Shown here in pieces: positions 113 through 33,063 of a DNA stretch of 33,564 nt (position 1 is the first letter of the stretch; the number at the start of each line of letters is the position of its first letter). The stretch is from NCBI GenBank assembly GCA_031263195.1, contig JAISGD010000032.1, forward strand, positions 1-33,564, written 5' to 3'. Both the position numbers and the translations under genes were made by a program. The notes beneath the pieces are model-generated. The model worked only from the letters and a program-made list of their open reading frames with translations. It ran no database searches and had not been told where the DNA came from. The stretch is from Campylobacteraceae bacterium. Lineage in GTDB: Bacteria; Campylobacterota; Campylobacteria; Campylobacterales; Campylobacteraceae.

Positions 113-670
113 GGAGTAAGTTAAAACAGCTTGACGGATAGATGCTGCTTTGACTTTACCTTCCAATTTTTCCAATATAAACAACGCGAAATCGATAGCC
201 GTAGCGGGGCCTTGCGAAGTGATAATATTCTCACTGTTTGCCACGACTTTTTTATCCGCAGTATATGATAAGCCCCCCCCCATACCAATCGCATGTTCCA
301 TTGACGGGTAGCAGGTATATTCGCCCTTTAAAACTCCGGCTGTTTTTAGGACATACGGTGCAGCGCATATCGCAGCAAGCGTTTTGCCCGCTTTTTCATG
401 AGCTCGCAGCATATCCAGCAGTTTTGCAGATTTGGCGAGATTTTTATGCCCTTCGTTGCCTCCTGGTAATACTATCATATCAAAATCGCTCTCTTTTACG
501 TCTTCCAAAAGCGTATCTGCCGTAACGACGACATTATTCGCACCCTTAGCGCTCTGCTCCAAAAGCGATGCTGTTACAACCTCAACGCCGCCCCTTCGCA
601 AAACATCTATAACGGCTATCGCCTCTATCTCTTCAAAACCATCTGCCAATGGCACTAAAACTCTTGACAT
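80..670 (-). CDS. DJ-1/PfpI (YajL/ThiJ-like) family protein
   Basis: A 196-residue cytoplasmic protein of the DJ-1/PfpI superfamily (stress-associated deglycase/chaperone-like proteins; the exact substrate cannot be told). The conserved acid is in GFEEIE (about residue 14), the nucleophile elbow Cys is C102 in AICAAPY, and a TSQGP segment follows at 151-155. The ATG at 670 is preferred over an upstream in-frame start because AAGGAG lies seven bases upstream and the family begins with this residue pattern. Two oddities: residues 130-133 are encoded by a run of nine G on the coding strand (273-281), and the last 15 or so residues (from about TYSPPR) have no family counterpart and are encoded by the hairpin region at 53-114. 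It is transcribed after mutS2, with about 110 bases between them. Confidence 0.9.
   Translation of the reverse strand: MSRVLVPLADGFEEIEAIAVIDVLRRGGVEVVTASLLEQSAKGANNVVVTADTLLEDVKESDFDMIVLPGGNEGHKNLAKSAKLLDMLRAHEKAGKTLAAICAAPYVLKTAGVLKGEYTCYPSMEHAIGMGGGLSYTADKKVVANSENIITSQGPATAIDFALFILEKLEGKVKAASIRQAVLTYSPPRISPLKRT
273..281 (-). repeat. Homopolymer G9 tract inside the DJ-1 gene
   Basis: Nine consecutive C on the plus strand read as G9 in the coding strand, spanning the G of an ATG codon and three glycine codons. Runs of this length are the classic slipped-strand phase-variation sites of Campylobacter and Helicobacter. The present length keeps the gene in frame. Confidence 0.85.
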
Positions 671-778: not shown

Positions 779-2977
779 TCAAAGCTTTACTATCACGGCT
801 CCCGCTCCGCCTTGATTGACGGGAGCGTCAAAAAACTCTTTAACACTTGGGTGCGTTTTTAAAAAGTTTCTCACGGCGAATGCCAGTTTTCCCGTGCCTA
901 CGCCATGATATATACGTACTTCGTCAAATCCCGCTAAAAGCGCGTCGGATAGAAATTTATCGCTCTTTTCTATAGCTTCGTCGGCGCGCAAGGCATGCAA
1001 ATCAAGTGTAACGCTCGCCGATTGCGGACGCTCATGAGAGATATTTGTTTTTACAACCTTTTTCGGCTCTAAAGCAGATATTTTTTTCAAAGAACTCTTC
1101 AAAAGACGCATTGTGATACCGTCCGTATCCACGCTCGCTTCATCTTTTTTAAGAGCCGTTATAACGCCTTTTATCGTACCGTATTTGACTCTGTCTCCTA
1201 CTTTTAACTCTTCGTTTTTAAAAGGCTTTGGCGGAGTAATATTTTTTTTAGCTTTGTCGGCTCTGTTTAAAAGTTTGTGCACCTCTTTGCTCTCATTTTG
1301 ACGTGCGGCAGCTTTGGCGAGATTTACCGCTTCTTGATACTCGCGTTCAAATCCAAACCTCAACGCTTCAAACTCTTTAACCTGAATCTCTTTTTGCTCT
1401 TCCAGCGAGTCGGAGAGTTTCTCTATTTTACGCGTTTTTTCCTCTATCTCTTTGAGTTTTTCTCTTGTTTTTAACTCCAAATCTATATTTTTTTGTATCA
1501 AATCGTTTAGTTTCTCTTTATCCTCGCCGTATAAAACACGTGCCTTTTCCACGATATTTTGCGCTATGCCATATCTCAAAGCCGTTTCAAACGCATAGCT
1601 TTTGCCTATAGTTCCGGCTAAAAAACCGTATGTCGGACGCTGCGTTTTTTCATCGTATAAAGCTGCCAAAAGCTCCACTTGTTCGTTCGCTGCGAGCATT
1701 GAAGCAAGCCGCTTATGGTGAGTGGTGATAATAATTTTTATACCTTTTTTGATCAAAAACTCCAAAATGGCGCAAAAGAGATTTGCTGCCTCGTCGGCGT
1801 CCGTACCGAGCTCTATCTCATCTACACCTACCAAAGCGGCGTTTAGCGTAAAAAGTCTGTTAAACTCCATCATGCGTCCGGCGAATGTAGAGATATCGTT
1901 TTTGACGTTTTGCGTATCTTCTATCACGGCTCTTATATGCTTGAAACTTCCGATATGCGAATGCACTGCGTCTATTTTCATCGGCAACAGGTATTTTGCT
2001 AAAAACGCGGCGCTTAACACAGACTTTAAAAGCATCGTTTTACCGCCGGCATTCACGCCCGTTATAAGCAAAATACTCTTTTTAAATTCAACGCTCACTC
2101 TTTTGGGCTCTTTTAGCGCCGGATGAGCGAACTCTTTTAAAACCATCTCTTTATCTCTGCCGGGCAAGATAAATTCCATATCGTTCGCTTTGGCGAACAT
2201 AACGCGCGATAAGTAGTTGTCAAAACGGTCGAACTCTCTATTGATAAACTTCAAAAAAAGTCTTTCTTTCTCAAACTCAGCGCTTATTTTTTTAGCGTAC
2301 TCGTATATAAGAGCTTCTTTTTGACTTAAAATATCCGCTTCTTGCTTTTGATAACCAGTAAGCGCGCTTGGCGTAACATAAAAATACCCGCCGGCACTGC
2401 GTCCCGCAACCGTTCCTTTAATCGCGCGCATATACCCGCCGCGCAACAATAAAGCCTCTTGAGAGTTGATAAAATGTATCTGTGTATCCACCAAAAATTC
2501 TTGCAGTTTTGAAGATGATATGAGTGACTTTAAAACTCCGCTTATCTTCTCTTTGACTATTTTAAGAGAAGAGTTTATCGCGGCAAATCTTGAGTCTATC
2601 TCTTCTTTCAATCCGCCTTTATCGTCAAACCAGCTCTCTATATTTAAAACAGAATGCGGGATATTTATACCCAAGATCCACTCGGCTGCCATACCTTCAA
2701 ACTTTTTTGATTTGAGATATAAAAAATAGCGCACTATTTTGACAAATTCCCAAATCTCGTCTATGTGCAGTGTACCGCGTTTTGAAAGGTGTATGAGTTT
2801 AACGTCAAGATTTGGCACGGAAGGAGGCGGTGTGAGTTCATATCTGCAAAGCTCATTTATAAAACGAAAATGTAAAGCGCTGTCTCCCTCTATAAAGAGT
2901 GGTTTTTCACGCGCCAGATAGTTTTTGTAACGCGCGATATAATCGTCCAGGTCGAGAGAGGCTATAAGTTTGTCCAC
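779..2977 (-). CDS. mutS2: MutS2 family ATPase with C-terminal Smr domain
   Basis: A 732-residue MutS2 protein, a cytoplasmic DNA-binding ATPase/endonuclease linked to suppression of homologous recombination and, in some bacteria, rescue of collided ribosomes. The N-terminal two fifths are MutS-like lever/clamp. Walker A GVNAGGKT is at 307-314, with a Walker B/Glu segment VGVDEIELGTD further on. A charged coiled coil lies at about 480-590, and the C-terminal Smr nuclease domain (about 658-732) carries LDLHA and HGVGTG. MutS mismatch-recognition domain I is absent, as expected for MutS2. The start is GTG, sharing one base with the TAG of the upstream membrane-protein gene (TAGTG), implying translational coupling. 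From memory, mutS2 - membrane protein - murC is also the C. jejuni order. Confidence 0.96.
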   Translation of the reverse strand: MDKLIASLDLDDYIARYKNYLAREKPLFIEGDSALHFRFINELCRYELTPPPSVPNLDVKLIHLSKRGTLHIDEIWEFVKIVRYFLYLKSKKFEGMAAEWILGINIPHSVLNIESWFDDKGGLKEEIDSRFAAINSSLKIVKEKISGVLKSLISSSKLQEFLVDTQIHFINSQEALLLRGGYMRAIKGTVAGRSAGGYFYVTPSALTGYQKQEADILSQKEALIYEYAKKISAEFEKERLFLKFINREFDRFDNYLSRVMFAKANDMEFILPGRDKEMVLKEFAHPALKEPKRVSVEFKKSILLITGVNAGGKTMLLKSVLSAAFLAKYLLPMKIDAVHSHIGSFKHIRAVIEDTQNVKNDISTFAGRMMEFNRLFTLNAALVGVDEIELGTDADEAANLFCAILEFLIKKGIKIIITTHHKRLASMLAANEQVELLAALYDEKTQRPTYGFLAGTIGKSYAFETALRYGIAQNIVEKARVLYGEDKEKLNDLIQKNIDLELKTREKLKEIEEKTRKIEKLSDSLEEQKEIQVKEFEALRFGFEREYQEAVNLAKAAARQNESKEVHKLLNRADKAKKNITPPKPFKNEELKVGDRVKYGTIKGVITALKKDEASVDTDGITMRLLKSSLKKISALEPKKVVKTNISHERPQSASVTLDLHALRADEAIEKSDKFLSDALLAGFDEVRIYHGVGTGKLAFAVRNFLKTHPSVKEFFDAPVNQGGAGAVIVKL

Positions 2978-17067: not shown

Positions 17068-17143
17068 GACCCGCTAGCTCAGTTGGTAGAGCATCTCCCT
17101 TTTAAGGAGGTGGCCGAAGGTTCAAATCCTTCGCGGGTCACCA
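17068..17143 (+). tRNA. tRNA-Lys (anticodon TTT)
   Basis: A complete cloverleaf: acceptor GACCCGC/GCGGGTC, D arm GCTC/GAGC, anticodon stem TCTCC/GGAGG around loop CTTTTAA (anticodon at 17101-17103), T arm with GTTCAAAT, discriminator A, and encoded CCA. First gene after the strong promoter. Confidence 0.97.
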
Positions 17144-17151
17144 TGTTGTTT

Positions 17152-17227
17152 GACCCTTTCGTCTAGTGGCCCAGGACTCTGCCCTCTCACGGCAGCAACA
17201 GGGGTTCAAATCCCCTAAGGGTCGCCA
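17152..17227 (+). tRNA. tRNA-Glu (anticodon CTC)
   Basis: A complete cloverleaf: acceptor GACCCTT/AAGGGTC, D arm GTCT...GGAC, anticodon stem CTGCC/GGCAG with loop CTCTCAC, T stem AGGGG/CCCCT, discriminator G and encoded CCA. The body is the classic bacterial tRNA-Glu, but the anticodon at 17186-17188 is CTC rather than the usual TTC. It would read only GAG codons. It lies eight bases after tRNA-Lys and is followed by a terminator. Confidence 0.95.
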
Positions 17228-17233
17228 TTTTTG

Positions 17234-17265
17234 CGCTGATTGGTGAGAGTCTCAGCGAGTTTTTT
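17234..17265 (+). terminator. Rho-independent terminator after tRNA-Glu
   Basis: CGCTGA (17234-17239) pairs with TCAGCG (17252-17257) across a 12-base loop, followed two bases later by six T (17260-17265). It would end the Lys-Glu transcript. Confidence 0.75.
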
Positions 17266-17308
17266 AAATTTTGAGTTCATTTTGGACTAATCAAAAAATT
17301 TAAAAAAC
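17259..17308. repeat. 14-bp AT-rich inverted repeat between tRNA genes
   Basis: GTTTTTTAAATTTT (17259-17272) and its exact complement (17295-17308) flank a 22-base spacer. The left arm overlaps the T-run of the preceding terminator. It could strengthen termination or be the relic of a small element. Confidence 0.7.
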
Positions 17309-17316
17309 AGGTTTTT

Positions 17317-17325
17317 TGCTAAAAT
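17317..17325 (+). promoter_or_regulatory. Extended -10 promoter for tRNA-Val and tRNA-Asp
   Basis: TGCTAAAAT is an extended -10 (TG-N-TAAAAT) preceded by a T-run, in the gap after the Lys-Glu terminator. The start would lie about 95 bases before tRNA-Val. No -35 match. The gap (17266-17428) holds no convincing gene; a short ORF there runs into tRNA-Val and is rejected. Confidence 0.5.
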
Positions 17326-17428
17326 GACAAACTGTTTTTGCGAAAGCATAAAGCGGAGTATTTTTTATTGAAGAGCAATGAAAAATTTATCCGACAAAGC
17401 TGCAGCGCAAAAGAGAAGGTCAAAAAAC

Positions 17429-17504
17429 GGTCGCTTAGCTCAGTTGGTAGAGCGCCACCCTTACAAGGTGGATGTCATAAGTTCGAGTCTTATAGCGACC
17501 ACCA
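17429..17504 (+). tRNA. tRNA-Val (anticodon TAC)
   Basis: A complete cloverleaf: acceptor GGTCGCT/AGCGACC, D arm GCTC/GAGC, anticodon stem CCACC/GGTGG with loop CTTACAA (anticodon at 17462-17464), GTTCGAGT T loop, discriminator A and encoded CCA. Confidence 0.97.
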
Positions 17505-17516
17505 TTCTATTTTGGT

Positions 17517-17593
17517 GCGGCGGTAGTTCAGTTGGTTAGAATACCTGCCTGTCACGCAGGGGGTCGCGGGTTCAAGTCCCGTCCGTCGCGCCA
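17517..17593 (+). tRNA. tRNA-Asp (anticodon GTC)
   Basis: A complete cloverleaf: acceptor GCGGCGG/CCGTCGC (one G-T pair), D arm GTTC/GAAT, anticodon stem CCTGC/GCAGG with loop CTGTCAC (anticodon at 17551-17553), T arm GCGGG/CCCGT, discriminator G and encoded CCA. It lies 12 bases after tRNA-Val. Confidence 0.97.
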
Positions 17594-30591: not shown

Positions 30592-30954
30592 TTATAATTT
30601 ACTTCCTTTAAAAATATTTATTCTTGAAGTCATTTTTTGAACTGGTTTAATTCCTCTTATTACAGATAAAATTGCTTCAGCAAAAGAAGAGATTAATTCA
30701 TTTGCATTATCAAAAGCATACTTTTCAAAATAATATGAAATCTCACTACAAGAAAACATACATTCATCTACATATATCCAAGCATTTACACAAACATTAT
30801 CTTTGCTTGAAATTTCCACAACAAGGTATGTTTCCGAAATACCATCTGTATAAAAATTCTTTATATCTAAATCATTTTTTAAAGCAACGCTATTTAATGT
30901 ATCAAAACACTGTTTTTGAAAGCTGGATAGATTTGATAATTCTACAAGTTTCAT
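30592..30954 (-). CDS. 120-residue candidate immunity protein of the left Rhs tip
   Basis: Starts at an ATG overlapping the stop of the Rhs tip by four bases (ATGA). Its ribosome-binding site GGGAGG is formed by the last codons of the tip (Lys-Gly-Gly), the standard gene order and coupling for toxin then immunity. The protein is soluble, acidic, mixed alpha/beta ([20 protein letters not shown] ... [13 protein letters not shown]). It ends in INIFKGSKL, similar to the tail of the Rhs tip itself. Partial truncation or fusion at the end is possible. Confidence 0.65.
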
Positions 30955-30967
30955 AATCGTCCTCCCT

Positions 30968-30992
30968 TAAATAAATCAATATGTTTTGATTT
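30968..30992. repeat. 25-bp direct repeat, copy 2 (cassette 3' end)
   Basis: Identical to 29779-29803, about 1.2 kb away. It encodes the SKHIDLF end of the Rhs tip. Confidence 0.85.
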
Positions 30993-31361
30993 TGTATTTA
31001 CTAGATTTCCAGAAATTCTAAATACATTATATCCATTATGCTTACCCCAACCAATTCTTAAATATCTATTGCTATTTGTCCAACCTCCAGGCGCAAATGC
31101 TTTTCCAGCCACTCTTGCTGCTCCAGCGCCTCCAACAGCCACTTGAGCCGCAGTTCCAGCATAGCCACCATTTTTATAAGCATCCGAACATTTATTTACA
31201 ACATCATTTGTACCCATTTGGTCTCGTATCCAATCTGTTGCGCCAAATGATACAGTATCCCCAAACCCAGCAACACCATCTACAAGCCATTGAGGAAAGT
31301 CAGGTATATAATCAGTCCACTCTAAACCTTCAGGATCCACCAAATTAACAGGGTCATTAAC

Positions 31362-31424
31362 CACATACCCATAAAGATTTGAACTTCCTCCTCCAAAGTC
31401 AATAGGATCTTTGCTTGTCCATCT
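31362..31424. repeat. Rhs core direct repeat, left copy
   Basis: 63 bases matching 33482-33544 with one mismatch (the first 48 are identical), encoding [21 protein letters not shown]. The two Rhs tips share this core and diverge on its toxin side, as expected for a recombination point for tip exchange. Confidence 0.9.
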
Positions 31425-31514
31425 GCCTGTATGACTATCGTATTCTCTGTATACGAATTTGATTAACTTAGTATCCTGATCGTATAATCCTCCCGCGAAG
31501 CCAAACGGAATATC

Positions 31515-31805
31515 AAGATTTTGATTTGCCGATATAGAGTTTGTATTTGTATTTTGATTTGCCGCAACATTTCTTTGAACAATATTGCTATTCGTATCTT
31601 GATTTGAGTTTGTGCCATAACTCGCACTTTGTGCGTTTGCATTGCCTGATACAGTATTTACGTTCGTATTATAATTTCCATTGTAAGAATTTATGTTTGC
31701 ATTGTAATTGCTTGTTACAGTATTCTGATTGCCATTCACAATATTCCCATTACCATCATACTTTGTCTTTTGAATAATACCCCCATTCCCATCATAATAC
31801 ACCTC
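31515..31805 (-). other. Asn-rich low-complexity insertion in the Rhs core
   Basis: About 97 codons between [10 protein letters not shown] and [12 protein letters not shown], which are normally about 10-15 residues apart. It starts with YYDGNGG / KYDGNGN half-repeats and continues as Asn/Thr/Ser/Gly/Gln-rich sequence (for example [18 protein letters not shown]) with no internal stop. Confidence 0.75.
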
Positions 31806-32106
31806 TTCCAATATATTCCCGAAACTGTCGTAATCTATGGATTTTAGTATTTGATTGTTTTGGTTAGTGATGGCTTTTAAGCTTCCTTGATGATTGTAAC
31901 TTAGATAGTATACGTTACTATCTTTATCCGTATATGATATTGGGGTTCTTTCGTCTACATACGTAAATCTATACTTTATGTTATTGTCTTTATCATATAT
32001 GGCTAAAAGCGTTATTTGGTCTAACCAAAGATACTTCTCTTCTATTTGGTTGTTTATTAGTTTTACCGTTCTTTGATTATTTGCGTTATACATGTAAGAT
32101 ATTTTA

Positions 32107-33063
32107 TCACTGTTTGGTAAGATTACCTCTATAGTATTGCTGTTGATTTTTAAGATACTCGTCAATCAAATCCCCGATATCTTTATTATTAATTTCTACT
32201 ATCCAAAACAAATAAGGAGGGTTGTCGTAAAGATTATGTAACAATGTAAATTGGTTGTTTCCAATTACTACTTCAATTATCTCGTAGTCCATTGTTTTTT
32301 TGTCTTTGTCTAATTTTTGCTGAATACTTAAAACCTTATAATCAGCTCCTATGGTTTTATAATGTTCTCTAAGCCACTTGAGATGTTTAGATGGCTGTAA
32401 ATAACAATCATTGACAGATATTTTTTGACATTCTTTTGAGTTTAACTCTAAATCTTTTGATTTGCATTCTCTATAATTAAAATCCATTTCAGGTTCTCCG
32501 CCACAGTTTCCACCTCCTCCTACAAATTTTGAGTATTCATATGCAGTTGGCTCGCTATTTCTTGTCAGTAATTCCATAAAATCATTTATGTTGCTAACTT
32601 TTTGACTATAATGTTTGTATATATCTGAACTATTGCAGAAGTCGTCAAGAGAGCAAAATTGTATGAACAATTGCATTCTAGTGGTATTACTATCTAAAAA
32701 ATTATACAATTCTTTTTTTTCATCTAAAACCCACTGATATTTTTTCAATTTTTCTTTAGCTGTCTCATTCGTAGTTTCTATATATTCTGATAGTTGTTTG
32801 TATTCATCATCTAAAAGAGAATATCTTGTTTCATATACTTTATACTGATAAAATGCATACATTCCTGCTTTACTGCCTATATAATGGTTTCCTAATTTCA
32901 TCATAGCTGTATCATTTCCTTGATTTGCTTGCTCTATCATCTCTTTGTATTCTACTTTTGATAGTTTATAGTTTCCTCTGCAACAAAAAAATGGAAAAGT
33001 GAGTAAAAGAAAAAATATTGCAAGAAATAATATAAAAACTAAATAAAATATTTTTAATTTCAT
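32107..33063 (-). CDS. Membrane-anchored Sel1-like candidate immunity protein of the right Rhs tip
   Basis: A 318-residue protein with one strong N-terminal membrane helix (about 3-27). A Sel1-like segment ([20 protein letters not shown]) follows, then a helical region, a Cys-containing stretch (about 187-223) and a mixed C-terminal part ending [19 protein letters not shown]. The ATG at 33063 overlaps the TGA of the frame-corrected Rhs toxin by four bases, hence the immunity assignment. An upstream GTG (33084) is possible but its ribosome site is too close. The final 17 or so codons are an alternative frame of the Rhs DNA of the next cassette, so the original end may have been replaced. Confidence 0.7.

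Follow-up and report, generated by a model that had tools for sequence, protein, structure and literature searches.

SSR-mediated translational phase variation is known from Campylobacter, and in the portion of PMC6321876 available to us, 9 is the length of 53% of the poly-G/C tracts in 77 Campylobacter genomes. The core phasomes given there include MurD, AnsA, 3-oxoacyl-ACP synthase, and other enzymes. A stress-related precedent is C. jejuni cj0275 (clpX), which has an in-frame G8. According to the accessible part of PMC4965091, only G8 was found in 390 colonies and no variant was found in more than 2,000 colonies from infected birds; a review table, seen in an excerpt of PMC8355987, records a repeat change in cj0275 after human passage. 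Neither clpX nor cj0275 is named in PMC13317227. Tracts that alter the C terminus of a protein are described for Helicobacter canadensis, with eight tracts of G10 to G14, most of them near the stop codon and varying in reads (PMC2823697, in the part available).

Here we describe a G9 tract in a DJ-1 family gene of a Campylobacteraceae bacterium. The gene lies in a contig of 33,564 nucleotides, analyzed over its whole length and referred to below as the window. We favor, at a probability of roughly 0.58, the reading that the tract is a recently gained, slippage-prone repeat in a conserved DJ-1/YajL-type gene that is ON as assembled, and that it is probably an unselected by-product and not an evolved switch.

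The DJ-1/YajL-type gene and its 3' end

The gene occupies positions 80 to 670 on the minus strand and encodes 196 amino acids. It begins with an ATG at 668-670, preceded on the same strand by a ribosome-binding-site-like AAGGAG at 677-682, and is full length (ON) in the assembly. The frame that contains it (80-703) matched the Pfam profile DJ-1_PfpI (PF01965) at 8.6e-43 (146.4 bits against a cut-off of 26.6) and the NCBIfam profile TIGR01383 with 195.1 bits against a curated cut-off of 131.25. When it was aligned with 44 of the 80 named loci, E13, E16, and C102 were invariant, and inspection of the alignment by eye identified them as the counterparts of E15, E18, and C106 of human DJ-1. The AlphaFold model of the protein (pLDDT 95) had TM-scores of 0.89 to human DJ-1 and 0.87 to YajL, which places it in the DJ-1 fold. 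By sequence and model, the gene is a DJ-1 family member and a candidate cPGA hydrolase, deglycase, or glyoxalase.

The gene is common among relatives. It was found in 144 of 150 genomes of the family at E 1e-20, and in 12 of 14 genomes of the genus, our own included. Its upstream neighbor is a MutS2-type gene at 779-2977 (minus strand), assigned from its MutS_V and Smr Pfam profiles. In 5 of 11 genus loci mutS2 adjoins the DJ-1 gene, and the flank sequence of the other 6 gave no mutS2 match. Horizontal gain of the DJ-1 gene was rejected on the basis of its distribution in the family and of this shared neighborhood.

At its 3' end, the gene has a TAC codon (116-118, minus strand) at the position of a TAA stop in 9 of 11 genus orthologues, and the frame runs 12 residues further to a stop at 80-82. 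Of the two remaining orthologues, one (L089) stops, by eye, with TGA one codon earlier and the other (L086) leaves its contig. The extension passes a C7 run on the coding strand (108-114) into a strong hairpin at 63-112 of the minus strand (MFE of -29.6 kcal/mol for 45-130, z of -3.8), with the stop codon in the apical loop. A known RNA at the hairpin was rejected, as Rfam at the gathering threshold gave only four tRNAs in the window. These four genes form two pairs on the plus strand at 17068-17590. A repeat or mobile origin of this 3' end, which lies at the contig start, was also rejected; positions 1-125 occur only once in the genome, where the next match is 19 bases long with an E value of 0.1. 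Near the other contig end, at 30951-32165, lies an Rhs/YD-shell-type gene whose match is below the curated cut-off.

The G9 tract and its probable recent gain

Positions 273-281 are nine C in a row on the plus strand and thus G9 on the coding minus strand. The tract spans nucleotides 390-398 of the coding sequence (ATG GGG GGG GGC), and the reading frame stays open through it. It falls in codons 130-133 (M-G-G-G), within ...HAIGMGGGLSYTADKK... (...IGMGGGLSY...), in a coil of the model (residues 129-134) that follows helix 122-128. This confirms the sequence-only reading, which had placed a G9 tract in a DJ-1 family gene: the tract is there, it is in frame, and both profiles score over their cut-offs. 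The gene carries, as G9, the poly-G of 7 or more inside a reading frame that serves as one criterion for phase variation.

Long G runs are commoner than expected by chance. The window contains 4 overlapping G7 matches against 0.64 expected, a count reached in 2 of 100 shuffles. Among the 19 other genes of the window, the longest coding-strand G run is 5, and GGG makes up 40 of their 571 glycine codons. When the DJ-1 protein was recoded synonymously, a run of at least nine G was reached in 104 of 20,000 recodings.

A length of nine could be an assembly or sequencing artefact, with a different true length, since homopolymers are error-prone and the contig starts only 272 bases from the tract. 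However, with nine G the frame continues unbroken across the conserved C-terminal part, and an off-by-one error would break it. We consider an artefact very improbable.

The sequence-only reading proposed comparing the loop in close relatives, and this comparison set the gene apart. From the YP motif to the next conserved strand, the loop has 26 residues here, compared with 22 to 23 in the 11 other genus orthologues and 19 to 24 in the 80 loci, a set from outside the genus search in which two (L002 and L003) appear to duplicate two of the genus records. The insertion is absent from all 11 orthologues, whose genes contain no G or C run longer than 5; the same limit applies to 18 further family loci. 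Of 397 class genomes, a single one, our own, yielded a run of G7 or more at the loop site; these genomes were drawn from a larger class and include two other members of the genus, and some could be missed because the pattern requires a TSxGP-type anchor, seen in 23 of 26 Campylobacterota loci. Retention of a tract among homologues, which would support phase variation and is not required for it, was thus seen in 0 of the 11 other genus orthologues, and the single class genome with a run is our own.

Since relatives lack the insertion and a G run at the site was found in our own genome only, while the gene is widespread, the tract is best read, from these comparisons, as a lineage-specific, recent gain. 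The earlier suggestion of a recent insertion is borne out in this form. The accompanying net insertion of three residues also adds L-S. That the family normally has no poly-Gly at this loop holds as a statement of rarity and not of absence; 1 of the 80 loci, from an archaeal MAG (L018), has Gly-Gly-Gly there, in a gene whose G and C runs do not exceed 4. The corresponding residues of human DJ-1 in the alignment are M-N-G-G, and the loop has 24 residues in two C. concisus loci (L008 and L014), so its length varies within the family. Two further loci (L025 and L026) contain G7, but over a conserved PGG motif outside the loop. Judging by these sequences, the DJ-1 family does accommodate loop growth and glycines; what is foreign to it is the G run.

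One other family genome has its DJ-1 gene in two frames (L216, G408:C8:17800-18800). This genome is 57% complete, and the locus may be a broken gene or an assembly error. It was rejected as a second case of the tract because the 1-kb stretch has no G/C run of 6 or more. In G414, the DJ-1 match extends to the contig end.

Poly-G tracts elsewhere in the genome

The genome contains 13 distinct runs of at least eight G. Tallied by hand, in a count that reproduces the 96 overlapping matches, it has 28 runs of length 6, 6 of length 7, 6 of length 8, 5 of length 9, none of length 10 to 13, and 2 of length 14. Extrapolating the decay from 6 to 7 predicts 1.6 runs of at least 8 (13 observed) and 0.35 of at least 9 (7 observed). 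Under a pessimistic decay that counts the excess in, the predictions are 7.7 and 3.1, respectively, with a P value of 0.04 for the latter. Such runs are common in the genus, with a G9 match, counted with overlap, in at least 13 of 14 genomes, our own among them; when 29 genus G9 loci among the matches listed (L126-L154) were scanned, most runs lay in no long frame.

Several runs in our genome lie in frame within genes. A G8 is found in an FtsW/RodA-type gene (L203, C5) and, by eye, in a repeat-rich surface-like protein and in each of two TonB-receptor-like proteins; a G9 is found, also by eye, in a VirB4-like protein. A G14 lies in a protein with a citrate lyase ligase C-terminal domain (L102, C14:30782-30795) and another in an FkbM-like protein whose match is below the cut-off (L111, C16:5449-5462). 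RecJ (L190, C21) has a C9 on its own coding strand. A G9 on C15 is in no long frame.

Other runs coincide with breaks in frame. A C5 cytosine DNA methyltransferase (L121, C25:70901-70909) is split between frames at a G9, with profile positions 1-181 before it and 273-322 after it, so that the gene is likely phase variable and OFF as assembled. An FkbM methyltransferase (L124, C28:8864-8871) is probably split at a G8, where its match ends at profile position 134 of 173. The piece after this run, in another frame, looks by eye like the continuation; alone it has no Pfam match, and the split is accordingly not counted as proven. At the G8 of L118 (C18:69075-69082), an Rhs-type core tail and a serum-amyloid-A-type tip are in different frames and the gene is probably split; the tip matches serum amyloid A (PF00277, 2.1e-27), and the core-tail match is weak and below the cut-off. 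A 2025 eLife paper (PMC12419801) reportedly mentions serum amyloid A, RHS repeat, and toxin domain. As sequences go, this set of tracts has the look of a genome with contingency loci.

A different origin applies to two of the in-frame runs. The RecJ C9 lies over TPPPV, a motif whose PPP is shared by 8 of the 12 other genus orthologues. The FtsW/RodA-type G8 lies over SVGGA, with GGA in all 12 others matched. Within these motifs, runs reach at most 5 and 4, respectively, in the 12 other genus orthologues of each gene. By this comparison, both runs arose by synonymous change in core genes, and these cases, of 9 and 8, indicate that a tract alone does not make a switch. The DJ-1 tract, unlike them, came with an insertion, so simple base drift does not account for it.

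These tracts bear on whether the DJ-1 tract is an evolved contingency switch, in which selection keeps the tract and a subpopulation without the DJ-1 enzyme provides bet-hedging of carbonyl or cPGA defense. G9 is the modal switching length in the available part of PMC6321876, which agrees with the sequence-only reading that nine G is a commonly phase-varying length. The frame-split methyltransferase, the arrival of the tract by insertion in a tolerant loop and not by synonymous change, and the clpX repeat change recorded in the excerpt of PMC8355987 also favor a switch. On the other hand, none of the relatives examined yielded the tract at this site (11 genus orthologues and 397 class genomes, with our own the sole match), it lies two thirds into the gene, core genes of the same genome carry similar runs by synonymous change, and our literature search, partly judged by title, turned up nothing on phase variation of a DJ-1 family gene. 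We regard an evolved switch as somewhat unlikely. That the DJ-1 enzyme is under ON/OFF phase variation, such that the lineage stochastically makes cells lacking a DJ-1/YajL-type enzyme, is unlikely on the sequence evidence; if true, it would extend contingency switching beyond surface structures to core metabolite-damage control in a Campylobacterota lineage. The earlier view that a switchable cytoplasmic stress protein would be unexpected was overstated, given the precedents of the clpX G8, MurD, AnsA, and 3-oxoacyl-ACP synthase in the sources as available.

Possible slippage, its predicted products, and comparison with known systems

Neither MutL nor MutS1 was found over the cut-off by profile search in our genome, which is 99.68% complete, and each was found over the cut-off in 11 of 14 control genomes. 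The only MutS1-profile match in the genome falls, below the cut-off, at the MutS2-type gene described above. Together with the excess of G runs, this result makes slippage plausible. It also argues against a stable, incidental tract, which would vary too little to matter or whose variants would always be purged, as does the statement that evidence of variability exists for every poly-G/C tract of at least 8 in strain NCTC 11168 (PMC6321876, in the part available). The clpX G8 colonies in the accessible part of PMC4965091 and the RecJ and FtsW/RodA-type runs of our own genome speak for stability. We consider a stable tract improbable.

Changes of one base were modeled in silico. G8 gives a 182-amino-acid protein with a foreign tail, and G10 gives a 139-amino-acid truncation. 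Of the 196 codons, 63 follow the tract, and either change would exchange or cut off the C-terminal third of the protein. Both products would lack the final strands, the GP motif, the two closing helices, and P155. P155 is by alignment the counterpart of P158 of DJ-1 and YajL, which is essential in both proteins; its change to alanine or its deletion abolishes activity, and its deletion misfolds DJ-1 (PMC12135873, as available in part). The G8 and G10 products are probably null.

The preferred reading, a mutable and unselected site, would work as follows. As the tract lies in a length-variable loop, three-base changes should be tolerated. Polymerase slippage at G9 in a cell with no detectable MutS1 or MutL would produce -1 and +1 variants at rates that we infer to be like those of C. 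jejuni poly-G tracts, given as 1e-4 to 1.6e-3 per division and as 4.2e-4 to 4.1e-3 in the accessible parts of PMC8355987 and PMC4235727, respectively. A one-base slip would yield the 182- or 139-amino-acid product, and a further slip would restore the frame, so that the site would behave like translational phase variation. OFF cells would be rare or counterselected, and the tract would most likely be a by-product of a tract-prone genome, with no selection for it, as suggested by its lack of conservation and by the comparable synonymous runs in RecJ (C9) and the FtsW/RodA-type gene (G8). Against this reading, the DJ-1 tract came with the insertion that the RecJ and FtsW/RodA-type runs lack, and several other tracts of the genome lie in the kinds of gene for which selection for switching is usual. 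The clpX precedent can be read either way, with no variant in bird colonies but a change after human passage.

If length variation were shown, this locus would be a natural case for asking under what circumstances a core-gene repeat acts as a switch or as a mutational burden. The same genome provides the DJ-1 gene, with a tract and an insertion, RecJ and the FtsW/RodA-type gene, with synonymous runs, and a frame-split DNA methyltransferase that is likely a real switch. If the tract does not vary, it would warn against inferring phase variation solely from the length of a tract.

Compared with the DJ-1 family (TIGR01383, human DJ-1, and E. coli YajL), the protein has the same sequence features, fold, and catalytic Cys and Glu positions; it differs in a loop that is 3 residues longer than in its nearest relatives and contains GGG, and in its 12-residue C-terminal extension. 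With Campylobacter SSR-mediated phase variation, as described in the available part of PMC6321876, it shares an in-frame G9 that leaves the gene ON in one of three length classes, a surplus of G tracts in the genome, and the lack of MutS1 and MutL over the cut-off, but the DJ-1 tract was not found at its site in relatives, lies in a core, cytoplasmic-type enzyme, and is known from one assembled sequence. The H. canadensis tracts (PMC2823697, in part) are similar in that a late poly-G tract alters the C terminus, whereas a shift in the DJ-1 gene would cost conserved parts of the protein. Like the C. jejuni clpX G8 of PMC4965091 and PMC8355987, as far as these sources are available, the tract is a poly-G in a conserved, stress-related cytoplasmic gene in its ON frame; the protein is a different one, and the clpX tract was counted in colonies, whereas the DJ-1 tract is known from the assembly.
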